The notes beneath the pieces are model-generated. The model was not told the origin of the DNA. It saw nothing but the letters and a program-made list of their open reading frames with translations, and ran no database searches. Shown here one piece after another: positions 247-62,983 of a DNA stretch of 64,000 bases. Positions within the stretch are counted from its first letter, which is position 1. Each line of letters begins with the position of its first letter. A program made the translations under genes and the position numbers. Source of the stretch: Batrachochytrium dendrobatidis JAM81. Lineage: Eukaryota; Chytridiomycota; Chytridiomycetes; Rhizophydiales. Location: NCBI RefSeq assembly GCF_000203795.2, contig NW_006281107.1:630965-694964 (forward strand). The letters run 5' to 3'.

Positions 247-861
247 CACTGCTGTATTCACGTAATGAAACATTAAATAAGTAATAAACAGTCAGTCCCA
301 TGAAATGGTTGTCGATTGCTGGACAATGCTATATGAGCTCATCAAAGTCTACAGATCTCTTGTGCTGTCGTTGGTTTCTTGCAGTAGAATCCAAGTTTAT
401 CTGAGCTTTTACAATACAAGAGTCGACAGGTTTCTTGACAATGTTGGGAGTTGAATTCAATATCTAGATTATAATGCATGAATCTGTCAATCATACAATA
501 TTGACTACCAAATAACCACAACTTTAGTTTAAAGTCAGTTTGATTTGTGCGTATCATAATAATTGTCTGGATATTGATTAATGGAGCTGTTAGTGCTTGA
601 TATTCCAAAACGTCTCAACGACAACGTCGCGAGGTAAAACTATATAGTGTCAGCTCAACCCAGCTGACAGTTGCTTTGGTATAAAATAGTTTTTTTTGCC
701 GAGCACTTCCACACAGGGAAAATTAAGAAAGTTTATTGAAGAGGCAGTTAATTTGTAATATTAAAGCGCACCGAGCATTTAACCGTTGTTTATTCCAAAG
801 CAAAATAGAAGCAGTCATTGCATGAATACAGGTATTTTATTTTACGTGAATACGGCGGTGA
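247..861. mobile_element. MITE-like element E1 (about 615 bp)
   Basis: Bounded by inverted ends: CTGTATTCACGTAA near 252 and the complement, TTTTACGTGAATACGG, near 841-855. The interior from about 255 to 805 is almost identical to 1530-2079, so E1 and E2 are two direct copies. A subterminal TTATTCC-A/G-AAGCAAAA motif near 790 recurs in other copies. No transposase is visible. An 88-codon minus-strand reading frame inside is present in both copies, but near-identity of the whole repeat explains that. Confidence 0.75.
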
Positions 862-1520
862 TAGAAGCACTATAGCCACTCATGATTTAGTCTAGCCTGT
901 CTATAACCAATCACTATGATCAACTGCTTTATATTTCAAAAGTACCAAAAGGCATACCCATTTGTTGCTTCGAAGGGATGACAGACACATTGATACAAAA
1001 AAGGTCTGGTTTATTCGCGCAAAAGTAAAGTTGGCATTTCCAGTGGGCTATGATGAATGCTCCAAGCTAAAATCTGGGCTAGAGTTTACCCGCACAGCCA
1101 TACAGTTTGTTGATATCAGAAGCTATTTGGTTATGATGATTTTTAATCCAAATATTCACTATGAAGCCAATGAAATAAAAATGACATGCAATTTAAAGCC
1201 ATACCCATTTGCCAAGTCGGCATTTATTCAAAGCAAAGTTCAACATGATGTAATTGTTCAAGCCCCTGGCATTCGCATTCTGATGATGGTTTCAAGCAAG
1301 GATAAACATTTTTTTAATGCAAATTAGTAAGAGCTCATTCTTACTGTTGCGAATATCTATGTTTTTGAATAACCAGAGTCTGCCAATGCAGATAATTGCT
1401 ATAAATTAAATTCAGTCTAACATGTGTGCAACTAAACCCTGCGCAAATAAATATGATAGCGTTTGTGCGAAAAAGTTTCTATTATGAAACGGGTGAAGTA
1501 CCCGTGTATTTTGAGTAAAT
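862..1520. other. Spacer between E1 and E2 with one open frame
   Basis: This spacer separates two direct repeats. It holds a plus-strand open frame of about 120 codons (962-1327) that begins with TTG, not ATG. It has no family I recognise. It could be a terminal exon of a decayed gene or chance. Nothing else is supported here. Confidence 0.3.
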
Positions 1521-2140
1521 TACCGTCGTATTCACGTAATGAAGCATTAAATAAAAATAATAAACAGTCAGTCCCATGAAATGATTGTCGATTGCTGGAC
1601 AATGCTATATGAGCTCATCAAAGTCTACAGATCTCTTGTGCTGTCGTTGGTTTCTTGCAGTAGAATCCAAGTTTATCTGAGCTTTTACAATACAAGAGTC
1701 GACAGGTTTCTTGACAGTGTTGGGAGTTGAATTCAATATCTAGATTATAATGCATGAATCTGTCAATCATACAATATTGACTACCAAATAACCACAACTT
1801 TAGTTTAAAGTCAGTTTGATTTGTGCGTATCATAATAGTTGTCTGAATATTGATTAATGGAGCTGTTAGTGCTTGATATTCCAAAAACGTCTCAACGACA
1901 ACGTCGCGAGGTAAAACTATATAGTGTCAGCTCAACCCAGCTGACAGTTGCTTTGGTATAAAATAGTTTTTTTTGCCGAGCAATTCCAGACAGGGAAAAT
2001 TAAGAAAGTTTATTGAAGAGGCAGTTAATTTGAATATTAAAGCGCACCGAGCATTTAACCGTTGTTTATTCCGAAGCAAAAGTGGCAGTGACTGTAAGAT
2101 GAATGCAGAGGTGTTCCATTTTACATGAGTGTGCAGCTAT
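1521..2140. mobile_element. MITE-like element E2 (about 620 bp)
   Basis: The left end reads TACCGTCGTATTCACGTAA from 1521. The right end, near 2120-2140, is the complement of TATAGCTGCACACTCATGTAA. Both ends abut TA. The core is nearly identical to E1. The last 90 bases, including the GAAGCAAAAGTGGCAGTGA segment, recur inverted at the start of E3, so the element ends are shared more widely than the interiors. Confidence 0.75.
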
Positions 2141-2333
2141 AAGTTCTGGTTGCAACAAAGTTACATCTGAATCAAACATTCAATTCTTTGACTTGTGATA
2201 AGATAAACCAGATGCAAGAAAATGTGTTTTAGGGTGAAATGCATTTTTGGATATAATTGGGCACTGAAAAAAGATTGTTAAAACCCATAGGGGTCTGAAT
2301 TGCGCGTCAAAGCAAATACGATTTCACATAGTC

Positions 2334-2971
2334 CACAGCCGTATTCATGTAAGATGGAACACTTTTGTATCTACTTTTCAATCACTGCCACTTTTGCTTC
2401 GGAATAACAATGGTTAAACATTGCGCTTTCATATTATAGGTTGGCTGTATTGCTTCAATAGATATTTCCAATTCGTCAATAAACAACATCTATCATATGA
2501 TGCACGCAATTAAGCTAGCTCAGCCAAGATTATCTCCTTTTTGGCATAGCCATACATTGTACGATCACAAGTTTGAAACTTGATTCATACATTGCAACCC
2601 AGATATTGAGTTCTCTACAGACGTGCTGTATCCCAAACTCACAAATGCGCTTGCGCTCTCTAATTCAAGAGAACATGAATCGCACGTATCAGAAATACAG
2701 CTATTGCTTTCATGTTGGTCACGTAATGTTTACTTGTAATGTTTAGGAAGTTGTGTGTGAGCAGGTGTAAGATTTACTGTAATGTAAACATTCGGTCAGT
2801 TATACAGAAATGAGCACAATGGAGAGAGACCAGTAAACCTTATCAAGGAGTTTAGAGGGCACAATGCTACCCAGTAAATTTAGTGGGAACTGTCACCAAT
2901 CATTTGATAAAACAGTCTATTATGCACTTTGGCACCCTTATTTAGTGTTCCATTTTACGTGAATACGGTTA
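2334..2971. mobile_element. MITE-like element E3 (about 640 bp)
   Basis: Starts with CAGCCGTATTCATGTAAGAT at about 2336 and ends with CATTTTACGTGAATACGG near 2951-2968. The left subterminal segment (CACTTTTGCTTCGGAATAAC) is the inverted equivalent of the right end of E2. Interior patches (GCACGTATCAG-AAT near 2680 and CCAGTAAATTTAGTGG near 2872) match E10 at 62.8 kb, so E3 and E10 belong to one longer subfamily. No coding capacity is evident. It lies about 240 bp upstream of the PMA1 start. Confidence 0.75.
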
Positions 2972-3212
2972 TGAAATGCGCTGTCTCACATTTATTGACA
3001 CGGCTATCAACGGCTTTTGCAGGTCCACCCAAAAAACTATTTAAATGTAGATTGTCTCCCCTCGAATTCTCTTTCACAGTCCTTTTTTGCTCTGTAGACA
3101 ATTTGTTCAGTTGCAATTGTTAGTTATTGCACAGGCCATCACTGCTGATTGTTATTACATCATTTGCTAGCCGAGTATAGCGAGTTAACCAGTCTCTCTA
3201 TTTTTGCCTACC

Positions 3213-6200
3213 ATGTCTCACGGTATGTTATTTTGTCAGATTGCTTCTTCAATCGTCGACGTTTGTCTTCCATCATGTCTTTCTGTCTTGGATGGATGTG
3301 TTTAGAGACGTGCTACAGTCTTGTTTCTAGTCCACCATTATGACTGGTGTAGCCTTGCTTTGCTGTAGCCCTGTTGGTCTAATTCTTGAAAGATGGCGAA
3401 ATTTTATCGCTTGGTGGCTGACGGTAGTGGACTAATTATGGTGCAATTTACCGTCTCCCGCTGGTAGTCCTTGCCTACTGCTTCATCTACTTTCTATCAA
3501 ACTGTACACATGTTTACTGGCCTTTCTCATCATTCCCTATCGATATTCCATTGGAAACCAATTGTAATTTGTCAAAATCGAGTATTTGCTAACTGCTTTT
3601 ATTTTTTTCAAACTGGCTCTATTCAATTCAATAGAAGTAAAGACAGATCCCCATCTTGAAAAGGATGAAAAGGATGATGTCCATGTTCATGTTGAAGTAG
3701 CTGATGCTATTGACGCTGAACTAGAACAATTGATTCAGACCAACCCCTCTAAAGGTCTTACAGATGCTGAGGTCGAGGAACGTCTTGCAAAGTTTGGACC
3801 TAATGGTGAGCTATATTTTTTAGTTTAAACATGCATGTATCCCGTATTGTAAAGTACCCCAATTGTCTATTTTAGATTGGGTTAATTACAAATCAAGCCC
3901 AAGCACTCTTGGCTTTAAAGTCAAGCATCTATCCTACCCTGTCTTACTATTTCCGTATTGATGAGTTTCAAGATTGACATCTTGTGATGTTGCATTGTCT
4001 GGGAGGTTTGCTTGGATATTTGATATGCTTTCTATATTTCACTACCCTGTGGGATTGGTGCTTTCAAATATAGCTTGCGTTTCAAATTGGTTGCAGCCGT
4101 ATTCGTGGTGTAATGCACTTTAACGAGTACAATTATCCCACCACGTGCCATCGACTAGACCCGTGCTTTCATATATTTCCTTTTGCTACTGTCTCAGCGA
4201 CAAAATTAAATTGAATGTGCTACACGTTCTGTCTGATTAGACAAGCCATTCTATTGTACCGAGCACTTGCTTGGCCGGGTTTAATTTGAATGTGACGACT
4301 AATCATTTTATGCCTTGGATGTAATTAGAAATTCCCGAATCTAAATCGAATCCGTTCCTCAAGTTCCTTGGTTACTTTGGTGGTGCCATTTCGTTTTTGC
4401 TTGAAATCGCTGCTCTGGTCTCTGCCATTCTTGGAGATTGGGTCGATTTTACTATTTTGATTATCGTTTTGATTGTTAATGCCGTTATTGGGTTCCACGA
4501 GGAGGCCAAGGCTGAATCTGCTCTGGATGCTCTTAAAAATACCCTGGCTCTTAGATGTCGTGCATGGCGTAACGGCGCACTGGTCGAGGTTGAATCTGTA
4601 CACTTGGTTCCGGGCGATGTGATTGCTCTCCGTCTTGGTGATATTGTTCCCGCTGATGCCCGTCTTCTTGGAATTGGTGTCACTGGAGCTGCAACTGAAG
4701 GTACTCTCCAAATTGATCAGGCTGCTCTTACCGGTGAATCTCTCCCTGTTTCAAAAGGAAAAGGAGCTATCGTTTACTCTTCTTCCATTGTCAAGCAAGG
4801 CCAACAGCTGGCTGTTGTTACAAAAACCGGTCTTCACACATTTATTGGTCGTGCTGCCAATCTGATTTCCATCACCACTGAGGAGGGTCATTTCCAAAAG
4901 ATTATCAATCAGATTGGAAACTTCCTCATCATTATTACCGTTGTTATGGTTGTTATTATCATGATTGTCTACCTTACCGTCAAGCCTGTTATAAACGAGG
5001 CTGGCCATGTTGTCACCGAGTTTGGTGAGCGTTTCAAGCTTGCTCTCAAGCAGGTGCTTGTTCTTACTATTGCTGCAATTCCCGTCGGTCTTCCCACTGT
5101 CATGTCTGCCACTATGGCTGTTGGTGCTTCCCAGCTTGCCAAAAAACAGGTTATCGTCAAGCGTCTTACTGCCATTGAAGAACTTGCTTCCGTTTCCATT
5201 CTATGCTCTGACAAAACCGGTACTCTGACTCTTAACCAGCTTTCATTTGATAAGCCTTATCTTGCCAATCGCGGAAGCACTAATTCCAATCTCGCTGGAG
5301 ATGGTACTGGTCGCTATACCGAGGATGATCTTTTGCTTTCCGCCTACTTTGCTTCCGAACCAGGTGCACCCGATCCTATTGAAAAGGCTACTCGTGATGC
5401 TGCCCAAGAACGTGTTACTCTTCTGCGCGAGCGTGATGTTCAGGACCATAACATTCCTGGATACCTTGTCAACGAATTCTTACCCTTTAATCCTACTTCC
5501 AAGTATACTGAAGCCACTGTTACCGATAACTCTACCGGAAAGAAATTCCGTTGCATTAAGGGTGCTCCCCAGGTCATTGCTCGTATGTGCGGCGGCCACG
5601 ATGAAGGAAATACCGCTGTTATTGATTTGGCCCGTCGCGGTCTCCGTGCCCTTGGTGTTGCTCGTACCATTGACGCTGAATGCAAGGTCTTTGAGCTTGT
5701 TGGCATGATTTCGCTGCTTGATCCTCCTCGTCCCGATTCTGCTCAGACCATCAAAGAGTGCAACGAATATGGTATTGGAGTTCGTATGATTACTGGTGAT
5801 CAGCTTATTATTGCCAAGGAAGTAGCTCATCGACTTGGCATGCAACGTGCCATTCTTGATGCTTCAAGACTCGTTGATCCTAACATTACCGAGGAGGCTC
5901 TTACTGACCGTTGCATCAAGGCTGATGGATTTGCTCAGGTTATTCCTGAACACAAGTACCGTGTTGTTGAACTTATGCAGAAGCGTGGCTTGCTTGTTGG
6001 CATGACAGGCGATGGTGTTAATGATGCTCCTGCACTCAAAAAGGCCAACGTCGGTATTGCTGTTGAAGGCTGCACTGATGCTGCTCGTTCTGCTGCCGAT
6101 ATCGTTTTGCTTGCTCCCGGTCTTTCTGCCATCGTTGATGGTATCAAGACATCGCGTTCCATTTTCCAGCGCATGCGTTCTTATGCTCTGTATCGTATTG

Positions 6201-6955
6201 CCTCGACAATTCATTTCTTGATCTTCTTTTTCATATCCATGCTTGCTTTCGATTTTTACCTGCCCGATCGTTTGATTATTATTATCGCTGTGCTCAACGA
6301 TGCTGCTACCCTTGTGATTGCCTTTGATAACGCCAAGATCTCCAAGCGTCCCGACAAGTGGCGTCTTGGCCAGCTTATTTCTTTGTCGTTCGTTCTTGGA
6401 TTTTTGCTCATGATTATTTCGTTCTGCCACTTCTTCGTTGCTCGTGCTCTTGTTACCGAGCCTGATCCTCATATTCGAGCAGGCATTATTCAAACCATCA
6501 TGTATCTGCAAATTTCTTCATGCCCCCATTTCGTCATTTTCTCTACTCGTGTTGAAACTTGGTTTTGGACTTCTATTCCTTCATGGAAATTCTTCCTTGC
6601 TATTATTGGTACCCAAATCATTGCCATGTTCATGTCCATCTTTGGTGCTTCTTTCCTTTATGCCACTGCTATTGGCTGGGGCTGGGGTGTTGGTGTACTT
6701 TTCATGTCGTTTGTTTTCTTCACTGTACTTGACGTCTTCAAGGTTGTTATTATTCGCTCGTGGTCATTTGAGCTTACTGCCGTGCTATGGCCCGTTCCTT
6801 CTCGCCGCGCAAAGCTGCTCAAGCGTCAACAGGATGCTATCCTTCACAAGCGTGTCCATATTAATATTGCCAAACTTCGTCGCGCTGCCGTTATGGCCGG
6901 TGTTGTCGGTCATTGGAGAGATGTCACACTGTCTTCCAAAAAGCATCATGCATAA
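3213..6955 (+). CDS. PMA1: Plasma-membrane P-type proton ATPase
   Basis: Exons 3213-3222, 3635-3805, 4329-6955; 935 codons. It exports protons across the plasma membrane at the cost of ATP, which energises nutrient uptake and sets cytosolic pH. Exon 1 is only 10 nt (Met-Ser-His plus one base). It was chosen because it joins in frame to an acidic N-terminus rich in Asp, Glu and His. Visible P3-ATPase motifs are TGES near residue 196, the phosphorylated Asp355 in CSDKTGTLT, GDGVNDAP near 621-628 and the PVGLP membrane motif. About ten membrane segments are expected. The length fits fungal PMA1 (about 900-1000 residues). The two introns (412 and 523 nt) are much longer than most here. The second contains a CAGCCGTATTCG stretch resembling one repeat end. 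The small first exon is the least certain part. Confidence 0.93.
4093..4125. repeat. Possible solo end of the MITE family in PMA1 intron 2
   Basis: GCAGCCGTATTCGTGGTGTA matches the first 12 bases of the family terminus and then diverges. I found no partner inverted end within the 523-nt intron, so this may be a decayed fragment or chance. Confidence 0.3.
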
Positions 6956-7074
6956 TTTTTTGGTCCAGTTTTGGGAGTCTTAAAACTTCAATTTTTCAAT
7001 ACAGTGTTATTTTTAGTTAAAAGTTGTATTAATTATAATGGGGGAGTGTCGAGATTTGTAACGAATGGATTTAT

Positions 7075-9213
7075 TTAATGAATGCGCTTCTCAACCGAGC
7101 TGCCCATTTCTTCGTACTGCTCTTTGGAAATCCACAGCTGATGAAAGCTGCCTAGTGATGCCATGATGGATCCACCAATCCAAGGACCAAATTTCCGCTC
7201 TGTCGATCCGCCTGCAGCATGTACCTTGATACGAACCTAAACATACTAATTAGAACCTTGTAAAATAAAGCTGCTACTTTAAATAACATACCTCGGGAAC
7301 ACCATGATGTAATTCTGAATACAGTCGATCAGCAAATCCAGGTAACAACGTGTTGGCTCCTGTAAGCACTACGCTGTTGTAAAAATTGCTACGTAAATCA
7401 TTGTCGCACTCGCCTATACTGGAATGAATCAGCTGGGGAATAGTCGCTGTATTGGTCTCGGTAGACATTGCGTTGGGATTCTAGGCAGTTGTTGTTAAGC
7501 AAAACATTAATGATCCAATAATGCGCTATTGAATTGACATGTTGTTGCGGTTTTATGGTGTCAGCAACAGGTATTACCTTGATAACATATCCGGGCTGAA
7601 AAAGACCTTCAACGCACCTGAAGCGATCAACACCAAAGGATCGGTTGAAACCGTTTGGAAATTCAAAATTCTTTGGTGGACGTCTCTTTAGCACTCTTAA
7701 AAGTTTGAGGATTAATAGTTGAATTGAGATCTACGATAAAGCAAGCCAATAAGTAGTCATTTACTTTTCATCAAACTGCGTTTCGGAAACTTGTAAAATG
7801 GTTTCTTTAAATTCTTGGAGCAAGCACTAAGTAAATAAATATAGGTTTTAAAAGGTGTTCAAGCATGCAACCAAGTTTATGGATGTGTATTCAATTACCT
7901 CCATGCCAAAATCATGATAGCTTGGAGTGGTGTTGGGGCGATTGGCAGCAACAAAGTTGGCTGGTGTACCGGAAACCACTGCCATTTTACTTTCGACTAG
8001 ATATTGGGGAATTAAATTGATACCAATCGATTCAAGATGTAGTTTAATTTGCTCAGATACAAAATCTCCTCCTAATGGAGCTCTTTGAATGCCTGTAAAT
8101 ACCCATGTTTTTGTGCACAAGATAGCACGCCAAAATGTTGGAGACAGATTAGATTGCATACCATATCTATATCACAATCGACATATTCAATAGTATCAAG
8201 CCTACCCTTTTTCAAAACGTAGCCATCGTGCACAGGAACAACACTTGTCGATGATGAGCCTGAATCCACCACCAATGCAGACGACTTTCCAGCAGCAAAA
8301 CTATACAATATATCAAGATTCAATACTACAGAACACTGTATAAATCTGGGTAGTCATACCAAATCAATACAATCATCGCTTACGCTGAAAGAACAGCGCT
8401 TCGCCCAAGATAAAACCCAGGAACATTATACTTTTCAAAAGCTAGCTCGCATAGTTTTTCTCGTTTTTCGCGAGGATTCCATGATGACTCGCAAAACATC
8501 AATGGGTGCTCAGTAGAATCAGCACATAGCACAGTCGAATAAGTATGATCAAAAATAGCCTCGAGTGCATCCCAATCGCTTACAACACCGTCTTCCAAAG
8601 GAGTTTTGACATGAAAGTTCTCTCGCCACTTGTAAATCTGTGAATCCCCTACCAAGTATTTTTTCTTTGGTTGGGATTTAGACGGTTGGCTGGCTTGCTT
8701 ATCCGAGGTCGAGTCTACATCCACATCCATTGGCGTGAGAGATGCTTCTTTGTTGCCAGAATCGGTGTGAACATGACCTACAAATGACGAGAATACACCC
8801 TTTGGGGAATCTTCTCCTGCATAGCCAACCTTTGTCAGCCGTGATCCAATATCGAATACGAGCGCAGATACTTCGTCTGTTATTGATAGATTATATAATT
8901 CAAAAGTGGCCGTGAAGATAATGCACACCACATTTACAATATGATCAGCACATTATATCTTGATGAAAAATAGATTAAACAGTATCATGTTGATGCACTA
9001 GCTCTTCAGATATAGAATGAATAGGATATGTTATGAGCTCGAGTAAATGCCCACTTGGATTGAGTTGAAGTAAATCCAGTGACGATGCAAGAGGAGTTGA
9101 CATTTGATTGGCTTTAGCACACATACACACATGCCGAGATAGTGTTTATCTATTCAACATATAACCCGTAGTATAGCACGCTGTAGAAACTCACCTCCAC
9201 CAAATACAACCAT
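7075..9213 (-). CDS. ARP4: Actin-related protein 4 (nuclear ARP)
   Basis: Exons, high to low: 9195-9213, 8384-8876, 8206-8300, 7899-8092, 7765-7826, 7578-7695, 7292-7480, 7075-7236; 443 codons. This is an actin-fold subunit of chromatin complexes (NuA4, INO80, SWR1 in yeast; BAF53 in animals) that binds other actins and histones. Evidence is the N-terminal actin phosphate-binding segment ([17 protein letters not shown]), a second VVDSGSSST motif, the QRAPLGGDF segment and a C-terminus [15 protein letters not shown] typical of the ARP4/BAF53 branch. An acidic, Ser/Pro-rich insertion around residues 50-75 separates actin subdomains. Exon 1 has 19 nt. The gene faces PMA1 tail to tail (119 bp) and diverges from RPA49 (274 bp). 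Arp8 is excluded by the short length. Confidence 0.9.
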
Positions 9214-9487
9214 TATTCAATATTCTGCCAACTTCAAGTGTTGGAATCGGTATTTTGGTGTGATTTCATTTGCAGTCCAGTCCCCAAATGACAGTCACGT
9301 GAATATGCCATGAACAGACAACAGCACGATCGTCAGATTACAAGTACTTGCAAGTCTCATCTGTTCATGACTGGATACCTGCGAGCTAATCGTAACACTT
9401 TATCTGACATGTGACTTGATGTCTTGATTAAAAAATAACAAATTTTTACAATTTAATCGTCAATTCGTTAAAGTCGATTAAAAATTA

Positions 9488-11320: not shown

Positions 11321-11554
11321 GCGTAATTTCTGCTACAGAGCATGACTTACTTTGTAGCAGATGCAGAGTTTTGAAGATACAAGACAGTACATTCATGAAA
11401 TAGTGATGCTTAAATAAACGAGTTTCTTATTCAAATAACTGGCGTCGATTTAGGACAAGTTTGGTTGCTAGTTTAGAAAAATATAATTATAGTAACTACA
11501 GCCTACTAATGCTATGAAGCAACACTACCAAAATTGGATTTCAGCCAGATCGAG

Positions 11555-12787: not shown

Positions 12788-12996
12788 TTCAATGACTTGT
12801 CAAGTCAATATTTTTCAAGTCAGAAATATTTATATTCACGTGATCATCTGTTCGGACAATTGCAATACAAATTGTCCGAAACTTAAATTTCAATTGCCAT
12901 CAACTTGATATTGCATAAACAGCAGTTTCTTGGGATCTGATTGAGTTGATTACAGTGTTGATTTGAATTCAAGGGTTTGTATTGTACTGAAACACA

Positions 12997-16477: not shown

Positions 16478-16564
16478 AGATTTGATAAAGCATCAACACT
16501 GTTATAAATAAATCATGATTGAATCACTTCAGTTTGAGTCGCATCTCGACGCGCATTTCTTTCC

Positions 16565-17033: not shown

Positions 17034-17104
17034 ATCAAAATTAACTCGATACTTTGTAAACTGTCATGGTTTATCTAATCATGTTTCCGTGATACTCCAG
17101 GGTC

Positions 17105-19621: not shown

Positions 19622-19908
19622 TACCACTGTTGTATTCAAGTAAAATGGAACATGAAGTGATCAGCAATCTCATACAATGGTGAATACCATGAGAATTAAA
19701 CTATTATTTTGTAAACTCTTTTGATTAAACTAGAGCGTGATGATGAGTATAAAACATCAAGTCAATATCTGGATTAGAATGAATTGAATGAATTGAATGG
19801 TTTTATAATATCGAGTTTCAATCCAAACTATAATGTTTTTAAAGAATTAAAAAGTTATTTCAACTCAAAATATTGACCGTCAAATCAGAAAACTTGAATA
19901 CGGCTGTA
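19622..19908. mobile_element. MITE E5 (287 bp), inverted partner of E6
   Basis: Begins TACCACTGTTGTATTCAAGT and ends with TTGAATACGGCTGTA, so it has imperfect inverted termini flanked by TA. The interior is the reverse complement of 39104-39393 with few differences by eye, including the duplicated GAATTGAAT unit near 19781-19799. It lies in the 437-bp gap between alpha-actinin and citrate synthase, ending 93 bp before the citrate synthase start. Confidence 0.88.
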
Positions 19909-28211: not shown

Positions 28212-28240
28212 AATCACAGCAATGAAACTAGTAGATCGAA

Positions 28241-39103: not shown

Positions 39104-39393
39104 TACAGCCGTATTTATGTGAAAGTTTTCTGATTTGACGGTCAATATTTTGAGCTGAAATAACTTTTTAATTCTTTAAAAACATTATAGTTTGGATTGA
39201 AACTCAATATTATAAAACCATTCAATTCATTCAATTCATTCTAATCCAGATATTGACTTGATGTTTTATACTCATCATCACGCTCTAGTTTAATCAAAAG
39301 AGTTTACAAAATAATAGTTTAATTCTCATGGTATTCACCATTGTATGAGATTGCTGATCACTTCATGTCCCATTTTACGTGAATACAACAGTA
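39104..39393. mobile_element. MITE E6 (290 bp) in a divergent promoter
   Basis: Starts TACAGCCGTATTTATGTGAA and ends TTTTACGTGAATACAACAGTA. Termini are inverted and TA-flanked. It is the reverse complement of E5 along its full length. It occupies 290 of the 413 bp between the tyrosine aminotransferase and Rab escort protein starts, so without it the spacer would be about 123 bp, in line with the other divergent pairs. Confidence 0.9.
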
Positions 39394-42026: not shown

Positions 42027-44324
42027 TCAGTATCTGCACTTGAAGGTTGCGTCATTGCGAGAACAGTTGACAGAAAAATTCGATTTAAATTTAGATTGAA
42101 GTAGTGTTGATACTTTTTCAATGTTCTGTTCTACATTGGATATTTGCGTTGCTATGAATTGCTCCTTGCTATTCACTGCAGCAAATTCTTTGGCGTATAC
42201 TTTTGTTAATCTTTGCTGTTCCTCTATTAAACGCTACATTTTGGAATCACCAATAGCAAGTTAGTTTACATACTGCATCGGCTAGTTTTCAAGTTTGCGG
42301 TGAATGTATCATGATTGTTTAGACCCATGTTTATTTTGAGGGCAGAATATTACCTTTAATTTTCGAATCTCTAGTGAGTCGTATTCGTGTACTGCGAGAT
42401 TTTCATCCTCGACTAGATTTTTTCTATAGTAATCCGGCTAGACATATTGCGTTAGCATCTAGTAGATATCTATGTACATTGCAATAATATTCTATATTTA
42501 GCATAAAGATTATATGGCTGACTTGCATTTTCCTTCAATTGCTCAAAAAGGGTTTTGATGAGCGGATCAGTAAGTGCACGTTGTTCGATCCAATCCTTGA
42601 CAAACTGCCATTTGCCCAGATACAGCAGATCTTTGCGTCTTTTTTCCTTTTGATCTCGTGCTACTTCTAGGTCAAACAACTTTCCTATTGTTTCAATAAA
42701 TTTGGTATCTTCGATTGCTGAATGAGATTCCAACCTTTTATGAGTAAAATAAATTGAGTTGAGATGCAATGAGCACACAGTGTTGAATTAGTATTGATTA
42801 ATATGGATTGGTTTACAATTTGAAATGAATTACATTTGTCTATGGTTTTGAGCAATCTCCCAAGATGCCACAAGCTCAACGATTCGCATTTTTTCTGCTT
42901 CAAGTGTTTGTTTGAATGCATACCCAACCAGTAGTTTGTTAATTTTTGATCGTAAAAATGCCTTTTCATCTTGAATGTTTACTATTGCCTTGATAACTAA
43001 ATGGTATTCATTCTATATTGATTCTAAAATTTAAAAAGTGAAACCTATAGTTTTGAACAATGTTGATCTGGAATAGCTGTGTTTTAGCAAGCATTTTGAC
43101 TAACCTGAATATCTGAAAGAAGACTAGAATAGCTACGAAATGTTTGAATGACTTGTTCCAAGCATCTATCTAGACTTTGTATACGACTTTTACTAAGCAT
43201 ATCCGAGCTATTTGAAAACACGTCTCGAAATTCCTATGACCAGATACACGAATCAGCAGCCTGCATCAGCCTATTCAATATTAAGTACAGTAGAAAGAGT
43301 ACCTGTTGCATATACAGATTAAGATCAGCTAAAGAATGAGATCCAACACCTCTGACAGCATCGGTATGGAATGTTTTTTTAAACAATGCCCGTGAAAACT
43401 CTGTTTGAAGTTGGAAATGACTTTTGTCAGTTTCCTTGACTGAGGCTAAAAATCCATATTCGTTGGTTAACACCACTTTAGATTGCATTTTTTTTGATTT
43501 AAAACCATTTGAGCTGGACTTTAAAGTTGTGCCAACTATATTCTGTGCAGACTTTAGAGACTGAAGATCTGTAGATGGTCGATGAGTTGCCGCAGTAACG
43601 TATGGTTTCCATTGCTGTAGCAATGAATGCAATTCCTGATTATTATTTGATTGCATAATGTGATATGATTTTATAGCTGTGAAATTGTGAATAAATGGTG
43701 GACAAAACAAAGGTAATTGCGAGCTAAAGTTTTAAAAGATTATTTTATGGATTAGACGCGCCGTTATACTATATCTTTGATGGCCATCAAGCCTAGTGAG
43801 CACAAACAGCACAAATCAAAAATGAACCATTTAAAACCATTTACAGTTTATTCACGTAAAATGGAATAGTGAACAAGAGTGCGGAATAAATAACCTCATG
43901 AAATGATGGGTGTCAGTTTACTGGACAGCATTGTTTTTATTCTTTAGCCGAGTTACTCTACTGATAACTAGTACGTAAAAAACAGTTGCAGAAACGTGCA
44001 ATGAGTATTTAAATGATTTATCCTCGAGTGTTTCATTCTACGTGAATACAGCTGTACTTGTAGGGATGCTTCAAATAAACTTTCACATTGAATCAGGTGA
44101 GAAACACAAGAGATTAGCAGTGTTACCAGTAGCTTATAACCAACGAGATTAGCAAGAGTAATACATATTCCAAGAGATTGAATGTTTATTTGAATGATAA
44201 ACCTAAAGTGGTTGAGATGCGAATGCAGCATGTTGAGATCAAGTGTGCAACCCTTTACACTCGAGTGTTGGATTTGTAAGGGAGACAAAACGACATCTAG
44301 GGCGAGTGCATTGAAATCGTCCAT
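42027..44324 (-). CDS. Coiled-coil protein, family not recognised
   Basis: Exons, high to low: 44203-44324, 43303-43723, 43105-43233, 42834-42988, 42527-42734, 42354-42437, 42027-42233; 441 codons. The product is largely charged helix (EFRDVFSNSSDMLSKSR, ETIGKLFDLEVARDQKEKRR, RLIEEQQRLTKVYAKEF), consistent with a coiled-coil structural subunit. Size and helical layout are compatible with an augmin-type (HAUS4-like) or kinetochore subunit, but no signature confirms it. The fourth of five introns after exon 2 uses a GC donor (GCAAGT, read on the minus strand at 42526). The first intron (479 nt) contains MITE E7. A shorter start at 43656 is possible. I prefer the longer model because the frame stays open through the upstream exon and its ATG lies 77 bp from the V-ATPase start. 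Confidence 0.6.
43842..44056. mobile_element. MITE E7 (215 bp) in a first intron
   Basis: Starts TACAGTTTATTCACGTAAAA and ends TTCTACGTGAATACAGCTGTA; TA on both sides. Near the left end it has the CATGAAATGATGGGTGTCAGTTT-like segment related to the interior of E1/E2 (in E1, CATGAAATGGTTGTCGATTG). It is the shortest copy, probably an internally deleted form. It lies inside the proposed first intron of the coiled-coil gene. Confidence 0.85.
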
Positions 44325-45817: not shown

Positions 45818-46061
45818 AATATCAATAAAAGAGCTGATTTCTCGGGAAAATCCAGTTTGTTTTCGCTTGGAATAGCTGGGATACTTGAACGAATACTGAT
45901 GAAACATCTCAATTGGTTATTCAACTGCCAGTGCTGTGGCCTTTAATATTTGATCTTTCAGATATAAGCTAATTGTATTCACTATGGGGTTTCAGTTTAT
46001 TGATCAAGAGTGATTAGCTGTTGCAACAAAGATTGAACAAGATTCGCTCTAATCCTTTAGC

Positions 46062-46556: not shown

Positions 46557-46616
46557 ACTGGCTGATGTGGATGTAACTATTATGATTCAACTGGAATAAA
46601 ATCAAAAACTTTTATT

Positions 46617-46909
46617 TGAAGCCGTATTCACGTAAAATGAAACATTTTTCTGCATTCATCTTGCAGTCTTATTTTGCTTTGGAATAGACAATTGTTAAAT
46701 ATTTGTACTGTTTTGAATCCAACTCGGCCTTGTAAAGACTTGTACAATCACATTCTAGTTTAAAAACAACGATTACTGGAATGTAGTCACATTTCAGTCG
46801 ACTAAAGAGACCAAACACAATACTGTTCAGTAAACTGACATTCATTTCATAAAACTGTTTTTATTATAAACGTTTATTCAACGTTTCATTTTACGTGAAT
46901 ATCGCAGTA
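46617..46909. mobile_element. MITE E8 (about 293 bp) in a divergent promoter
   Basis: Left end GAAGCCGTATTCACGTAAAA, right end TTTTACGTGAATATCGCAGTA. The subterminal TTATTTTGCTTTGGAATAGACAA-like stretch near 46672 is the family's TTTGC-TTCGGAATAA motif. It fills most of the ZNF706-like/UTP10 intergenic region; removing it leaves about 163 bp. The left flank is GA rather than TA, so the left boundary is less certain. Confidence 0.85.
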
Positions 46910-47012
46910 AAATTGAATGCAAACAATTGCACGACAAAAAAAACAAATTCAATGTAAAAATTATAAATGCAACTTTCACCTACAAAATACATTCTAGCTA
47001 GCTGTTGAGAAA

Positions 47013-53932: not shown

Positions 53933-53950
53933 ACCATGTCAAGTATAGAG

Positions 53951-56667
53951 TTAAAGATGTTCTGGATATAAAGCTGTTACAATCTCGTCTCTGTACTTGC
54001 TGATAACAGACTTTAGCTCCCTCCTAAAATAGTTGAGCAATCAGTTGGCTTTGAATAAATAAACTAGCAAATTGATCAAAGCATAGTGTTGAGGGTTGAA
54101 AATAAGCGGGATTCACAGTCGTGTAGCGTACCTGGCTATACTTTCTCGGAATAAGATTTCTTCCACGTGTATACGACCATTAAAGTATGGAACGAGTCTG
54201 GATATAACATGTCAGTGATACCAAACCTTGAGTTGCTAGACTATACAAAATGAACGGAAATCTACCTTGTAAATAGTGCTGCAAGAGGCGGCGGCTGTGA
54301 ATTTGCAATGGTAGCGATCCAACTAGCTTCCTGCTCGCTTAAATTTCCAGGATCTGTAAAAATAGACGGATGATCACTGACAGGATTCCATGGTACATTC
54401 CCATTTTCTGGTGACGGAGTTTTTGCCAATAAACGTGCTGGAACCGACAAGTCTAGGCATCATGCATTTAAAATCAATTAAAACCAATTTTATAGTTGTG
54501 CAACTAGTGTAATCAAAATACATGTATACAACGTACATATATACATGTGCAGTTGAACAACAAGGTTTTTTCTGAGCAAAAATGTAATAATTTCTAAATA
54601 CAAATTGCGATTTTCTTTAGAATGGGCAATTGCAGAATATGGTCGTGGAATTGACAGGTCTTGCAAAATGCGTACGAGCTCCATTTGTGGAAACCGAGAT
54701 GAAAACTCGGTGGATAGCTTTGGAAGTCTGTTCAAAATGAAGAAAGCAGAATGGATTAGACGTTTAAATGATCAAGCCAATATCGCGTACATCGCAGTAT
54801 GGCTGTTTAAACAAGGCATCAAGGAGTTTAAACTACGCAAAACATACTCTGAAAGTTGAGCTTGAGGAGAAACAATATACACGTTTCGATTGCTGACTAC
54901 ATGAATAATTTTTGCTTTAGACCATACATACAGATGAGCGGCAAGACGGTATATCTGAGAAAGTGAGCAGCTCAGTGTAGTTTGCAGTTCTTCAAACCTT
55001 GAATACGTAAATTAGTATATTAGTTTTAGTGGAGATTAGCTATTATGCCATGGTTTACATTGCTAAATCACTTACGATAAAGTAGGTGTTACTATTTGAA
55101 TTAATTCTACAAGTAATGGAGATGCGTCAACAGGCAATGTGTTTAAAATTTCTTCAGCATCTGAAAGTAGCAACAGTGCTTGATAGGGTCGCAATGTAGG
55201 ATGGTTAAAATAAGCACTAGAGATCTCTAATGGAATAGAGATGGTAGAATTACTAGCATAATAGGAATCTATAGTGCTACTACTTGAACCTGGATACGTG
55301 TTTTGGGTTTCAATAATACCACACATTCGCAACGCCAAACTTACAGATCCGTTTACTTCTAAAAACGATGGCAATTGACCATGAACAGCATGGTAAATAT
55401 GAGCAAGACATCTTGCAAGACTGCTTGATTTAAGAATTTGCGATTGAAGTTCAAGAGGATCTCCCGCACCACCATTTTGAACTTGATACCGATCATTGAT
55501 GGCAAGAATAAGCTCAGTTTCAGTACGAATGTAGCCACGACGCAACTGTTCATATTTTAATGCAGTCGTAACTTTGACAACAACGTGATCGTAGATATTT
55601 TTAACTTCTTTTGAATGGTGACTGGTTCCACGACCATCTGGCTGAAGTGCAAACACTAGATTGAACATGGTGAGTTGGTGATGGTGATGATCAACAGGCG
55701 AAGGCAACTTTGAAGAAAATGCATTAGCAGATGGTTTATCCTCGGAAACACAGCTACTGGATGGATCCGAAACAGCAGCAGTAAAAGTAGAAGACGAGTC
55801 GATTTCACCCAAAGACTGACGATAACTCGTTGCACTTGCAATTAACTTTCTTTTTTGAACCATGCGCGCAAATCGAAGGCCAGTACCTGGACGATCTGCA
55901 TTCAGTAGTGTAGGATGACCGACAAAATCAACATTGTCCACTGTCAAGTGGAATTGCTTGTCGCAAAGAGCCACTTTTGGAGATAGAATATCTGAAAGAA
56001 ACTCACAATCCAAGCCCAAAAACTTATTTTTAGGCTCTGGAGGTCCATGAGAACCATGTCTTGAATGAGTTTGTTTTTTAGATAATGTTGCAGCAGTCAT
56101 GACTAAAGTGGAGGATTGAGCAGATCGAAAGTCCAAATGTGTTCCAGATACGCTGCTGGTTGCAGTCGAGACAGCGTTTGTACCAGCCAAAGAAATCCCA
56201 CTTGGAATGGTATTAGCATGGCCACGACTTGCCAAAGTCTTTCCAGCAGAAGAGTTTGATGGGGTTTGTGAGCCATTGTACTGATGATTCAAGCCTGATG
56301 GCAGCTGAAAGCTCATTCTGCTGTCTGTGGTGAGTCCACTAGTGAGTCCATTAGTGGATCCATTAGTGGATTCACTGGTATGCATGGTAGCAGGACGCTG
56401 TTTGCCTAGAAAGCTACGAGGTTTACTATGTCGATACTCTTGAATGCAATGATCAACAGGAACACCATGAATGCCATGACGAGAGCCTAGGATTTCTATA
56501 GGCGGTGAGCCAGAGTTGCTGTCATCTTCATGGCCATTCCGATGGCGAGAGCGTATGCCAGTTTGCTCACTCTGACTGGCAGCAGACGATGCGCTTGCAG
56601 GATACATGAACACCAGTTGATGGCCTCTGGAAGAGTACGACACAAACAGAATGCCTTGCACTACCAT
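53951..56667 (-). CDS. NPR3: NPRL3, GATOR1/SEACIT subunit
   Basis: Exons, high to low: 55076-56667, 54848-54997, 54522-54727, 54266-54452, 54132-54197, 53951-54023; 757 codons. With Nprl2 and Depdc5/Iml1 it forms the GTPase-activating complex that restrains TORC1 when amino acids are low. The longin-type N-terminus reads GILFVSYSSRGHQLVFMYP, followed by a long Ser/Gly/Thr-rich insertion (about residues 25-215). Then come FLGLDCEFLSDILSPK, the conserved MFNLVFAL strand, C-terminal winged-helix segments, and a last motif LVPYFNGRIHVEEILFRE matching the NPRL3 C-terminus. The donor of exon 3 (GTATTT at 54521) is the weakest joint. Confidence 0.9.
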
Positions 56668-56848
56668 TATGGCTTCTATTACTAATAATGAGAGTATATC
56701 TTATCAAACCCAAGACTGCAATCCACTGCAATCGCTTCACCAATTATAGATATTGTTCTGCCCACACTTGACCCAATATGATGGCTAAATAAAGCCTATG
56801 TATTTTTTATTTGCTTAACATAGTATTTTCAAGTCAATTACTCGACAT

Positions 56849-59800
56849 TCAGATGTTTGAAGGACGATATCCATTCGTGAGTTCTCGGGTGGATTCCATC
56901 GTCAATGTGCGATGTCCAAGTCCCAAAGTGCTTCCATTAATGCTGCTTCCAGATCCAAGGATGCGTGTAGTTAATGCACGACGAGCACGAACAGCCCGTG
57001 TCCGGCGTGCCAAGCTGGCATCTGCAACCTGCAACGTGGTGTAATCCACACTTTGTTCTCTGTTTGTACGGAAGATGTTGACCAGATGCACTGCGCCAGA
57101 TCTCCATCCTCTTTGTGATCCACTTTGTTGAGGTGATCCTTCCGGCGACGATTCTCCACTGTGACTAGGTGAATGTGCGTAAGATAGTGGCATAGTTGCA
57201 TTTGCTGGAACCGGTGCATGAGAAACTGTTGGTCCTGGGAATCGCAATGGAGCTGTTCGTAGTCCTTCAATACTGTTTCTCAATGGTCGGCTAGATTCTG
57301 CTGTTCCATCTTCATCAGATGTCTTGTCAATGGGAATTTCAACCATCATGTCATGTTCTCCTACAGTACTATCCATGGCCAGTTTTTCAGAATCTTGCTT
57401 ATAGGAAAGTTTTTCTGTGCTTGCAGTAACGAGTGTCGGCTCGGCAAAGATAAACGACGGAAGCTTAAAGTCGGGCATGATGCGAATCAGGAATCCAACA
57501 ACGAGACTGCCAAGTCCAATCAAAAGTGAGATTCCCCATCCTGTCGCATCAAGACCATTTTGATTGGTCTTGAACACAACACCTCCAAACTGCACAATCA
57601 GTGTTTGCATTACAACCGTCATGAGAAGAATGCCAATAAATGTATGGTTGCGAAGGAATCCACGGAATACATTGATCTTTTCGCGACTAATCGAGCGGCA
57701 GTTGATTTCGTTAAAGATTTGGCAAAAGACATATGTATTGAAAACAATCGTGGCAGTAGTGACATCGACTCCAGTGTGCCTAAAGGATTCGGCATTGGCT
57801 TCAGGACTTGTTTTTGACGCCCACCAACCAGGTCCATTGAAAAACAGCACCAGGCAGGCAGTGATTTGGTAAATGTCTTGTCCAACAATCATCTTGAACA
57901 TGTCGGGAGAAATAATCGACTCGGATCGGCTAGATGGCTTGCGGTTCAAAAGATCTGGTGAAGGAGGGTCGGTAGAAAGTGCAAGGGCAGCAAACGTGTT
58001 CATAATCAAGTTAATCCAGAGAAGCTGAATCGCACTCAAAACGGATGCAACATGTTTTGGTCCAGCAACAGTCGAGTAGATGGATGTGATAATAGTGAGG
58101 GTAACAGCAGATATGTTGACAGTAAGCTGGAATTGCAAAAACTTTCGAATTGCATCAAAAACACTACGACCCCAGATGACCGCCTTGACTAGAGAAGCAA
58201 AGTTGTCGTCCATAAGCACGATATCCGAAGCTTCCTTGGCAACTTCAGTGCCAGCAATACCCATAGAAAACCCAACATCAGCAGCAGCCAGAGCAGGCGC
58301 GTCATTAGTTCCATCTCCAGTAACAGCAACAGTGTGACCAAGACGTTTAAGGTTGTTGACAAGAATCTGCTTATCAAGTGGCGAACTACGTGCCAACACT
58401 TGCAAGCGAGGGAGAACATCGTTCATTTCCGTTTCGGAAAGTGTGCGGAATTTAGGACCTTCCATGGCAAGACCATCAGCAGCGAGAATACCACATTCAC
58501 GAGCAATAGCACAAGCAGTCTGAATGTTGTCACCTGTAACCATACGAACAACGATTCCAGCAGACTGGCACGATGCAACAGCATCAGGAACCTCGGGTCG
58601 CAAGGGATCTTGAATGCCAAACATGCCCACAAGAATCAGATCTTCGTCGTCAGGAATAGGTTGCTCACTCTCTTGATCAGATTCGCCATCGTCGGAATTA
58701 GACGTCATGTGATGAACAAAATGGTCAATGGGACGAATGGCCGCTCCAATCGTACGAAGCGCATTGGATGCATAGGTGCTAATCAAATCGGTGTATTGAG
58801 CACGAACCACATCATCCAGGGGAAGAACACGACCACTAGCATCAACATAGCGATCGCACAGTGCAAGAATAATTTCGGAAGCACCCTTGACGCATACCCA
58901 ATCACGAGTCTCGGATGTAGGCGAGGCAAGCTCATGTTGAGGAAGACCAAGTAGCTGTTCAAAAACAGGATCAACAGGATCACGGATGATACAGGACATG
59001 CGCTTTCGTTCAGAGCTAAATGGTTCAATTGCTACCATGTGAGCAGTTTTTCGATCCTCTTGGTATTCAAACCCGAGAATTCGGGTAAACTCCAGTAATG
59101 CAACCTCTGTTTTTGATCCATTAAACAACACAACGCCTTCGCTGTTGCGAGATTCGTCGGCAGTAGAATTGACGTTGAGAGTTCTAGCAACAAATGCTAA
59201 TAGTTTTTGAGATAGATCGGGTACACTGTTTCCGGCGAGTAGTTTTTGCTTTAGAGTCTTTTCGACATCCTCATGCTTGTACTGAACAGTTAAAAGAGAT
59301 CCTTGAACTACGGTCATCTTGTTCATAGTAAGCGTACCAGTCTTGTCAGAGCAAATAGTAGTGGCATTGCCCATAATCTCACAAGCAGCAAGATGACGGA
59401 CCAGATTGTTGTCCTTTAACATGCAAAGAGTAGCGTGGGCAAGAGAAATGGTAACGGCCAAAGGAAGACCTTCAGGGACAGCAACAACAATCACGGTGAT
59501 ACCAAGAATCAGAAGAGCAATAATGTCTTGACCAATCTGGAACGAGTCTTTGGTACCAGGAGGCGATGTGACAAAGTAGGCAATAAACAAAATAACAATC
59601 ATACTGAATGCAGTAGCCACGCCAAATATGGCAATCTTGTCGGCAATTCGCCCGAGTTTTTCTTGAAGAGGTGTGGCTTCGGCCTCGACTTCCAAGGAGA
59701 GCAAAGTACGGCCGTTGATCGAGTTGACACCAGTGGCGATAACCAGCATGCGACCAATACCATGGACAACTTTTGTGCCAGATAGTAAAAACGGATCGCG

Positions 59801-61097
59801 AGCCAAATCTTTATCGACTGAAATGGGTTCACCAGTCAGTGTACTTTCGTCGGTTTGAATATGGAATCCCTCAATAAGCACTCCGTCAGCGACAATAACG
59901 TCGCCCGTCTCAACAAGTACAATGTCTCCCACAAGAATGTCAGCAGTGGGTATAATAGCTACCTCCCCACTGCGTACCACTTTAGTTTGAGCCAATGCTT
60001 TTGAAAAGGCTGATAGTTCGTGAAATTGGTTTTGCTTGCGGTAATCGCTAACAGATCCAACCATGACAACAATAATGACTAGATGTTTTGAATTCATTTT
60101 GAAAAATTGAAGTATGGTTGAACAACCGATTCAAGCGCATGCAAAGCAATAGTTACAGTTGCCATATTTTATAATAAAATTGTTAGAACATCGCGGTTTT
60201 TAGAATGTGGACGTATGAGATTTTAGGAGAGTTGCATTGACAACACCAGAACAGTTGAGCCCAATATCTGGATTGTAATGGATGAATCCTGCTTCAGACT
60301 TGTCAATTGTACAATTAGGCTATGCCAAACGAAGAAAAAGGGAGGTTTGAAAATGAATCTCAGCTCAAACCTAGTTTGACTTGAGCATTGTATGATGGAC
60401 ATTATCTGAGCAGTTGAGAATTCAATGCCCAGAGACACAAAGGATATCTAATCACTGTCTATCCCAAGTAGCAGACATTGCAATATAAGCGTTTTATTCT
60501 ACATGAATACGGCTGTAATTTCACGGCCAATCAGCATATAGTGCAACGAAGCAGTTTTCCCATAATCTGGATAAATATGCATTGAAACCAAGAAACAATT
60601 GTCAAAAAGCAAATCTTACCTGCGGCAACAATGGCAGCACCGTCAATCAAAGCAAACTTGTCCCGCTTTTCAATGGGAGCGAATTCAAACTTGTATACAC
60701 CAATGGCCATTTCAATAACAGCTGCGCAGCATAGAACGATGAGTGTCTTGTCTTGAAGAGCATCCCACATGAATTGAAAAATGGTTCTCGAGGCAGCTTC
60801 TGGTAGCGAATTGGAGCCATAGAATTCTTTGCGTTCTTCATGAGTGGACACATCCTGGCATCATAACAAGTATTAGTTGAACGTTCATTCTATAGCTGGA
60901 TAGTTTTACAAAATACATACCGATGAAATGCCTTGCTTGAGATCCGTCAGTAGTGACTTTTCAAGACCAACAGACCTCCCCAATTCCAAATAAAGATCAG
61001 GATTCTTTGGGTCCAGCAAATCGAGAATCCGCTCTGGTGTCAATGAAAATTGGGACCGCTTAATCACGACTGTGTTTTTATTGTACTGAATCGACAT
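56849..61097 (-). CDS. PMC1: PMC1-type P2B calcium-transporting ATPase
   Basis: Exons, high to low: 60921-61097, 60620-60854, 56849-60078; 1213 codons. It pumps cytosolic calcium, probably into the vacuole as in yeast Pmc1, or outward as in animal PMCA. Motifs: FSLTPERILDLL and EFYGSNSLPE at the N-terminus, TLTGEPISV (actuator), PEGLPLAV in M4, phospho-Asp382 in CSDKTGTLT, VTGDGTNDAPALAAADVG and an M6 segment WINLIMNTFAALALSTD. The TGEP form is typical of P2B pumps. A Ser/Pro-rich tail of about 150 residues follows the last helix and may be regulatory; I cannot point to a calmodulin site, though the last 60 residues are Arg-rich. Intron 2 (541 nt) is enlarged by MITE E9. Confidence 0.93.
60154..60517. 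mobile_element. MITE E9 (364 bp) inside PMC1 intron 2
   Basis: Right end TTCTACATGAATACGGCTGTA matches the family. The left end TACAGTTGCCATATTTTATA is a decayed version; both are TA-flanked. Without it the intron would be about 177 nt; the neighbouring intron is 66 nt. It lies between splice sites and leaves the reading frame unaffected. Confidence 0.8.
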
Positions 61098-62212
61098 TCT
61101 GCCTAACTATTGTTGTGGTCTGTGCCATCAAACCAAGGTTAGACCACAATATAGCATTGAATGTGCGTGGCAATGAGCCCTGTAATGCATTGACTGGAAA
61201 ACGTACCTTGTAATACTTGATGATAATATGCAGATGTAATTGATTAAAATTTTGTCAATGGGACTTGAAATGAACAGATACGCCAGAATAACTTCTTTTG
61301 TAAGATAATGAATATCGTATCAGAATGGGCAAAGCACGGCCAATATATACCTGTGTTTTGTTAAATGCTCCTTGGTTTACAGCATTCAAAAGCACTGTTA
61401 GTGCTATGTATTTTCCGCACTAAATAGTGCTTGGTACAAGAGTATATCGCGTAGACAAATATGCTTTTGCCAATCTTGTGAATGAATCAGGGTGCTGGTA
61501 TCCCTTGCTCAGCAGCGGTCTGCGGACGAACTTGCATCATGGCATTATTTATCAAACTAATCATACTACCTTAGCACTACTTCACAGCATGATCTGATGA
61601 AATGTGAGCTCAGTGCTGTCATCAAGTATTTATAGATTGGCTCGACGGCAATGTTTTTCAAATTGTATAAAGCAGATGCACAATTCAGCCACAATATAAT
61701 CTACACGCCAAGCAATCTCAGTTGCATTGCCAATTTCGGTTCTAGCCCACACTATGGAATGATGGCACCGAACTATGGTCTATTAGATGATCAGAACAGA
61801 CTTCTAATGCATGGTGCTTCAAGATCCAGCGGTTTTAAAAAAAGATGCTTGGCTTAGGGATCAATCTCAAACCATCTTCAGTTTAGTCTTTACAAATTTT
61901 AATGTCACGCAACCAAACAAACAAGCTTTTTGTTTGTCATTCGACCTATTTTCCAAACAATTGTAAAGCAATGGTGCTTTGCCTATTTGTAAGCACCTTG
62001 CTGCAAAGCTTGATGTGGGGTTATAACCCAATACACTGGTATCTTGAAACTATAGGTCCCCGAAATTCAAGCCACATTTTTAGGTAGATTTGTGATGGTT
62101 GAAGTTATGGCGAATTTATTGGTTTAGCCAGTTGTTTAGCCCGACTACGGTAGCCATGCTTTAGCTAACCGCATTACAAACCTAGTTTCCAAGATTCAAT
62201 GCAACCGAATTC
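61098..62212. other. Gene-poor stretch upstream of PMC1
   Basis: About 1.1 kb without a supported gene. The part next to 61097 presumably holds the PMC1 promoter and 5' leader. Short open frames (such as 61651-61857) have no family resemblance and no consistent splice context. I see no RNA gene or repeat end here. Confidence 0.5.
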
Positions 62213-62983
62213 ATAGCCGTACTTGTGTAAAATGTACCGCTTTTGTATCTTGAATTGACCCTTTTGATCCGGAATAAACAATGATGAATATTTGCTGTGC
62301 TTTTCTACTAAAGATTGACTATTCAACATTCTGTTGTCTGGAATTGATTGGCGCACAAATCTATTGTCACACTCGAGTCGTTTTCTGCAGGATTCAAAAA
62401 TGAAGTGCGAGGCAGTGTAGTTCCAATCTTTGTGCCATTTGTTGAATGGTTGGTAAACCATGTTCAATCAGACGGTTGTTTTGTGGAATGGAATACTGTT
62501 TGGAATAACATGCGTGTTTTGGAATGTTGCATGTCGTTGTTTAAAAAGTCTTGACATGTTACGGATTGCTGAAACCTGGAATGTTGGAATGTTGGGAGTC
62601 TGGAAAGATTGCACTGCAACCAACAGATTCCTACTACACAACACACAATCAGACACCGTATATGTTATTGGAAACGCTGGTTTGACACACAACCAACAAA
62701 TATCTGGCACAATCATACCATTGAACAAGTGCTGTTGTATCCTAATATCAGACATGCTCTACTTGAATAACGCCAAAGATTGCACGTATCAGGAATGCAA
62801 CTGTTGTTTCTATGATGATCATCCAGAATGGGCACAAGGGAGAAAACCCAATGGATTTTACAAAAGGGTTTGGAAGGGACAATATTGCCTAGTAAATTTG
62901 ATGAAAGCTGGCATCCATCCAACATAAGATTGACTGTTTATTATACTTTTATTCAATGTTCCATTTGCCTGAATATCGCCTTA
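62213..62983. mobile_element. MITE-like element E10 (about 770 bp), relative of E3
   Basis: Left end ATAGCCGTACTTGTGTAAAA at 62213; right end CCATTTGCCTGAATATCGCC near 62961-62980. Subterminal TCCGGAATAAACAATG matches the family motif. Interior patches near 62780 (GCACGTATCAGGAATGCAAC) and 62888 (TGCCTAGTAAATTTGATG) align in order with E3. Several small open frames inside are not conserved between E3 and E10, so I treat the element as non-coding. Confidence 0.75.

Follow-up and report, generated by a model that had tools for sequence, protein, structure and literature searches.

Short TA-flanked repeats of Batrachochytrium dendrobatidis JAM81 are very probably decayed derivatives of one IS630/Tc1/mariner transposon lineage

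Overview

Batrachochytrium dendrobatidis is a chytrid fungus threatening amphibians worldwide. We have analysed a family of short inverted-repeat elements in a 64,000-nucleotide stretch of the genome of strain JAM81 (C33:630965-694964, here called the window), where a reading made from the letters alone (the sequence-only reading) had proposed ten copies moved by a Tc1/mariner-type transposase. Tc1/mariner is a common sort of mobile DNA. The repeats are very probably non-autonomous, mostly decayed copies of one IS630/Tc1/mariner transposon lineage. The copies share their ends, combine one end of a type A with one of a type B, show a preference for TA and enclose transposase remnants of uniform orientation, and some are near-identical while their flanks are unrelated. 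The copies have features of miniature inverted-repeat transposable elements (MITEs): they are short and numerous, hold no intact gene and have their ends in common with transposase-bearing relics.

The parent would have been an asymmetric element, by our estimate of roughly 1 kb, in the order TA, terminal repeat CAG(C/T)CGTATTCACGTAAAA, A stretch of about 80 bp, one transposase gene, B stretch, terminal repeat and TA. Its B stretch would have held a TTGGAATAAACAAT motif, and the transposase gene (DDE_3) would have been read towards the B end. Internal deletions would then have taken away different parts of the gene while both ends were kept, and a transposase supplied from elsewhere would have moved the copies to TA sites by cut and paste.

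The genome searched comprises 23.49 Mb in 33 contigs. Loci drawn from it beyond the window carry L-numbers, and the DNA sampled from this one genome amounts to about 0.3 Mb (294,353 bases). The only unbiased sample is the one 64-kb window.

Terminal repeats and target site

Inverted terminal repeats, a membership feature of the IS630/Tc1/mariner superfamily, are present and begin with CAGCCG or CAGTCG. Abundance was measured by counting the 19-base terminal repeat on both strands with up to 3 mismatches, using the reversed pattern as a control. The ends are found throughout the genome, with 2,303 occurrences (1,112 + 1,191) versus 4 (3 + 1) for the control. Nine such ends were counted in the window for nine elements; this density projects 3,303 ends genome-wide, the window being 1.43 times denser than the count of 2,303. 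Extrapolating from this one window, with one element per end, the family would have about 2,300 elements of mean length 450 bp, or about 1 Mb and about 4% (4.4%) of the genome, which supports in scale the earlier proposal of a major genome component. The median length of 29 elements was 405 bp.

TA precedes 121 of the 147 exact ends in the genome, the frequency of TA among the dinucleotides of the window being 6.4%. Many of the elements sampled have TA on either side. Read inward, the 18 flanks of the nine window copies are TA in 11 cases, CA in six and TG in one, and each of the seven non-TA flanks is a single transition away from TA. The suggestion that several copies have TA on both sides holds for E2, E6, E7 and E9. 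CA instead of TA was seen at both ends, read inward, of E1 (249-858) and E3 (2336-2971).

The ends might instead be those of a different superfamily that inserts at short A/T-rich sites, the mariner-like pieces being chance passengers. PIF/Harbinger elements target TWA and piggyBac elements TTAA, and TTA or TTTA is frequent here in the flank just outside the end. However, both ends read TTA inward, which leaves TA as the repeated part; TTA and TTAA do not fit, and the two targets were rejected for this reason. As the pieces enclosed by A and B ends also share one orientation and are DDE_3/IS630-like, we regard this origin as extremely improbable; the same TA counts and pieces bear out the Tc1/mariner assignment of the sequence-only reading.

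Two types of end

Profiles for the A and B ends were built in two rounds over the sampled bases. The A-type stretch behind the terminal repeat reads CAGCCGTATTCACGTAAAATGAAACACTAAATAAG..ATAATAAACAGTCAG. The B-type stretch has the same first 28 bases as A, followed by TTTT..TGTAT..CTTGCA..TTGGAATAAACAATGG, and the TTTGCTTCGGAATAA-like subterminal motif noticed earlier is real and belongs to this end type. Genome-wide, the cores of A and B were counted 320 and 165 times at up to 3 mismatches, with none for either reversed control.

Facing ends less than 1.8 kb apart were paired if both had E < 0.05. One A and one B end were found in 28 of 28 such pairs, and the copies would therefore descend from one asymmetric element. 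Five pairs with one end above the E threshold were left out of the 28 (E5, E6, E9, L044 4308-4675 and L044 8168-8680). Ends without a scored partner occur in L001, L003 and L034 and at the subtelomere-like loci described below.

Origin of the interiors

Many of the variable middles consist of differing remains of a single transposase gene, because pieces of it lie between the ends on the expected strand, in five of the nine window copies (E1, E2, E3, E9 and E10). The interiors had been described as unrelated or partly related, and 'unrelated' is wrong for these five. The statement that the window encodes no transposase holds for an intact gene only, as the five copies carry relics and the one in E10 gives a protein match.

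Two tests were applied to the middles. In the first, 80 bp were trimmed from each side of 29 elements and the remainder matched to transposase coding DNA; 12 of the 29 matched on the expected strand, where 50 shuffle sets and 50 random-window sets gave no match at all. Three of the 29 had been fetched through DDE_3 searches, and both weak matches on the opposite strand are among these three. In the second, 30 elements were locally aligned, each with 100 shuffles, and z of 4 or more was reached by 15 on the expected strand versus one on the other.

The middles could also be captured host sequences, as in Pack-type elements. Outside the ends, E2 and E6 match only their sister in the whole genome, which means that their middles are private. 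Against a host origin, transposase remnants occur in five of the nine window elements, E2 included, and the genome search showed no further source for the middle of E2 or of E6. We therefore hold capture to be very unlikely.

Transposase relics

The DDE_3 profile matches 24 places in the genome, of which 12 or more lie no further than 25 kb from the end of a contig, and 20 ten-kilobase loci were taken around profile matches. L029 is matched over 1,480 bp or more by 15 further loci of the 20. The L029-type loci carry one common relic followed by a B end and then TA; at the subtelomere-like loci the B end lies some 110-150 bp past the DDE_3 match. The longest stop-free stretch in 16 aligned relic copies is not above 113 residues.

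An A end, a transposase piece and a B end are combined in one element in L045 4536-5269, L046 4772-5346 and L049 747-1381 (575-734 bp). The same order is seen in L044 4738-6393 (1.66 kb), where some 800 bp of other sequence (about 5270-6060) replaces the N-terminal part of the transposase. Part of this sequence is also found to the left of the relic in L033.

The read-through of L030 matches DDE_3 with 2.8e-12. The IS630 model gave 2.7e-8, which is short of that model's cut-off. The second and third catalytic residues of L030 are 39 residues apart (LDN to NPAD), the third being Asp; in E10 and L034 the third catalytic codon is GAA (Glu).

A protein search of the genome with a 124-aa piece gave 148 matches among 150 scored of 207 candidates, several per locus in places. 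Most of these contain stops, the only end-to-end stop-free match is at the query's own place, and one (E10) is in the window. A 147-aa piece matches one B. dendrobatidis protein at 88% identity over 71% of the query, and the L047 copy is 94% identical to the same protein over 112 residues. With the 262-aa read-through, no relative was found at E up to 1 (208 candidates), and a sequence search against solved structures gave nothing relevant. The DDE_1 profile had no match in the genome and none in any control genome either, and so shows nothing.

Two candidates for a coding element were rejected. The L029/L030 loci were considered to hold a complete autonomous element longer than 4 kb; their upstream 3.3 kb consist of other repeats, and no A end was found upstream, L050 included. 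These high-copy repeats beside the relic (L030 1100-4360) have 56 genome matches, with 40 of 81 candidates scored. A 457-residue open frame beside a relic on C21 belongs to a neighbouring gene, the relic there having stops and then a B end.

A number of observations were made around the relics. Thirteen loci (L031, L032, L033, L035, L037-L043, L047 and L048) share a long subtelomere-like repeat with one common mariner relic, 6.9 kb of which is 95.6-98.7% identical between L047 and eight loci; the A/B profiles found no further family end in the 13 subtelomere-like ten-kilobase loci. In B. dendrobatidis, 20-80 kb of repeats are reported to adjoin the telomeres (PMC6284735). An 866-aa open frame of unknown kind (L029 7177-9777) lies beside the subtelomere-like repeat. 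L034 and L019 (C4) represent a second, more diverged transposase lineage with about 32% protein identity to P0001 and a B-type end. Transposase matches recur about every 3.3 kb, like a tandem array, in C31:671991-678792 and 973655-983778. Beside the match at C9:296381 an open frame of 5,790 residues is listed, and masked sequence is suspected. In L056 1-270 a relic directly follows a host gene frame, presumably that of a fumarylacetoacetase.

Evidence against the proposed origin

Several findings weigh against descent of all copies from one such parent. Concerning the ends, E5 and E6 have no clear B-type stretch, the weaker end of L044 4308-4675 scores best as B with E 0.07 from the repeat alone, in the sampled DNA a B end without an A end is seen for L030 and the subtelomere-like relics, and no TA follows the B end of L044 4738-6393. 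Concerning the middles, leaving out the three elements fetched by DDE_3 reduces the expected-strand matches to 9 of 26, L004 matches the wrong strand (z 4.4), and 15 of the 30 elements, E5-E8 included, are without transposase signal at z 4. When the flanks of 29 elements were joined and searched for an empty site, a weak test on sampled DNA, two self matches only were returned, and for this reason we infer the TA duplication from the flanks only. Finally, a full-length copy encoding an intact DDE transposase, which the sequence-only reading had proposed to look for, was not found genome-wide, neither by the DDE_3 profile and the 124-aa protein search nor in the inspected relic, and introns could hide one. 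The source of the transposase may have been lost or missed.

Subfamilies and near-identical copies

Elements without an intact gene have multiplied from end to end. In the L004 subfamily, 28 of 40 scored of 488 candidates (query included) span at least 430 of 448 bp, which agrees with the earlier proposal that non-autonomous copies were probably moved in trans. Their identity is 69-77%, except for the query and one neighbour: among the copies scored the best other copy is this neighbour at 99%, and the next has 77%. Four distinct members of the subfamily are 72-81% identical in the middle and retain 18-19 of 19 bases in the A repeat and 15-18 of 19 in the B repeat where it is whole; that of L052 is broken. 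An exact end had led to L004 and L008, and not to L052 and L054. In these few sequences the conservation of the ends would fit selection on the ends while copies kept moving.

Other copies have a single close relative. The sole sister of E6 in the genome is E5 (two of two candidates), with 98.5% identity over 269 bp, and the sole sister of the E2 middle is E1 (40 of 41 candidates scored). Five close pairs were compared: E1/E2 (1.3 kb apart), E5/E6 (19.5 kb, inverted), L004/L051 (34.7 kb, inverted), L052/L053 (20.7 kb) and L054/L055 (1.3 kb, inverted). Because the pairs were picked for closeness or for lying in the same window, the distances of 1-35 kb are not unbiased.

The flanks are unrelated in all five pairs. 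L054 and L055 differ at 2 of 433 columns, the shared stretch being bounded by the terminal repeats, with TA at four of four ends. L051 deviates in the first three bases of its left repeat, next to which the flank is TT. The right repeat of L052/L053 is altered and the identity extends past it, one left flank being CA. At about element position 260, a patch of about 14 bases differs between these otherwise near-identical copies. Compared with the divergence of 20-30% in the family, copies that are 98-99.5% identical in unrelated surroundings show that movement or exchange was recent.

The pairs could represent new insertions, in which case the elements may prefer nearby sites. Alternatively, they could be old insertions homogenised by gene conversion, or local duplications. 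For E1/E2 such an exchange is suggested, most simply gene conversion, because a uniform middle lies between differing ends: 26 of 123 end positions are changed versus 8 of 483 middle positions (Fisher p 4e-13), and the B ends are 78% identical, within the family range (mean of other members 70%, 190 comparisons). The short distances within all five pairs and the identity running past the altered right end of L052/L053 also favour conversion or duplication. On the other hand, the four other pairs have no significant contrast between ends and middle (L004/L051 p 0.59, L052/L053 0.45, L054/L055 0.53, E5/E6 0.098), though conversion of the whole element would give none either, and the unrelated flanks speak against plain segmental duplication. 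As a general account of the close neighbours we consider conversion or duplication possible and rather unlikely. A combined picture is given a distinctly lower probability. In it, transposition would be continuing or would have ceased only very recently, although no intact transposase is seen, ends and middles would differ in part of their history, and neighbours would swap middles by conversion, the A and B ends providing flanking homology.

Copies in the window

Nine of the ten proposed copies were confirmed (Table 1). They measure 211 to 768 bp, close to the 215 to about 770 bp given before, and occupy 4,055 bp or 6.3% of the window. The tenth, E4, described as a possible fragment in intron 2 of PMA1, is a chance match: the only nearby match, CAGCCGTATTC at 4094, has 6 mismatches in 19 and a profile E of 9. 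It was dropped because it offers only an 11-base exact match without partner end near the PMA1-like gene, which lies near 5-6 kb with a DKTGTLT motif at 5210.

E9 has coding stretches on both sides, which belong to a P-type ATPase gene other than the PMA1-like gene, and we read this position as an intron. Its left boundary is tentative, as the A-type profile has no match there. The protein match of E10 (C33:693285-693506, window 62321-62542) has E 1.3e-6 and one internal stop. Scans of the window with Rfam and for tRNA genes (bacterial settings) gave nothing, and no family end was found in viral contigs by exact pattern.

Table 1. Elements of the family in the window and transposase remnants within them (window positions; z from local alignment against 100 shuffles)
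Feature	Position	Strand	Length (bp)	Description
E1	249..858	+	610	A left (E 2e-12), B right (E 8e-15); flanks CA/CA inward
E1 transposase remnant	about 357-781			z 5.6; 0/100 shuffles
E2	1523..2137	+	615	A left, B right; TA both sides; middle near-identical to E1
E2 transposase remnant	about 1659-1992			z 4.6
E3	2336..2971	-	636	B left, A right
E3 transposase remnant	about 2428-2771			z 6.1
E5	19627..19906	+	280	A-like left end (E 2e-3), right end a bare terminal repeat; sister of E6; transposase remnant below significance (z 2.3)
E6	39106..39391	-	286	Opposite orientation to E5; TA both sides; E 9e-4 with the A profile, only 1.3 with the B profile; transposase remnant below significance (z 1.7)
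E7	43844..44054	+	211	A left, B right; TA both sides; no transposase signal
E8	46619..46907	-	289	B left, A right; transposase signal below significance (z 2.7)
E9	60156..60515	+	about 360	Degenerate left end, B right (E 1e-9); TA both sides
E9 transposase remnant	about 60234-60435			z 13.8; covers region of first catalytic D (alignment)
E10	62214..62981	-	768	Longest copy; B left, A right; decayed collinear transposase inside
E10 transposase relic	62314..62896	-		z 18.1; reference positions 207-799 of 804 (nucleotide alignment)

Comparison with known systems

Transposable elements have been reported as 3.37% of the B. dendrobatidis genome (PMC9926174). A second annotation gives, across its strains, means of 12,958 copies and 4.23 Mb for unclassified repeats and of 1,250 copies and 800 kb for DNA elements, with 38% of the repeat library unclassified; the words MITE and mariner are absent from its main text (PMC12204190). 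The present family resembles those unclassified repeats in being an unnamed kind of repeat in B. dendrobatidis, and it may be among them or sit under the DNA elements of that annotation. We found no description of it in the literature searched, which included passages of papers on chytrid genomes. The kind of element is known; it is the family itself for which a description was not found. Once it is named, its insertions can be used as markers in strain comparisons, and the pairs with 98-99.5% identity offer a direct test for ongoing transposition.

The family shares with IS630/Tc1/mariner elements and their MITEs the TA flank, short inverted repeats starting with CAG, the DDE_3 domain and deletion derivatives that outnumber coding copies. 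It differs from them in the distinct A and B stretches behind the repeat, in the private middles of E2 and E6 with one sister each, and in that an intact source was not found.

Within the superfamily, maT (DD37D) has ends starting with CAGGG (PMC8472432) and Tc1 is DD34E, whereas the spacing here is 39. This spacing, seen in the L030 relic, is that of PlantMar or DD39D (Guest) elements (PMC7325037, PMC8472432), which are reported from plants and a few oomycetes (PMC7325037) and from bees (PMC8472432). Unlike these, the third residue is mixed here (Asp in the L030 group, a Glu codon in E10 and L034), the ends start with CAG where a DD39D element of a bee starts with CTCCC (PMC8472432), and the parent is estimated at about 1 kb compared with 2-6 kb for DD39D. 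Judged from the relics, the transposase appears to resemble DD39D by its spacing, while the ends and the mixed third residue fit poorly.

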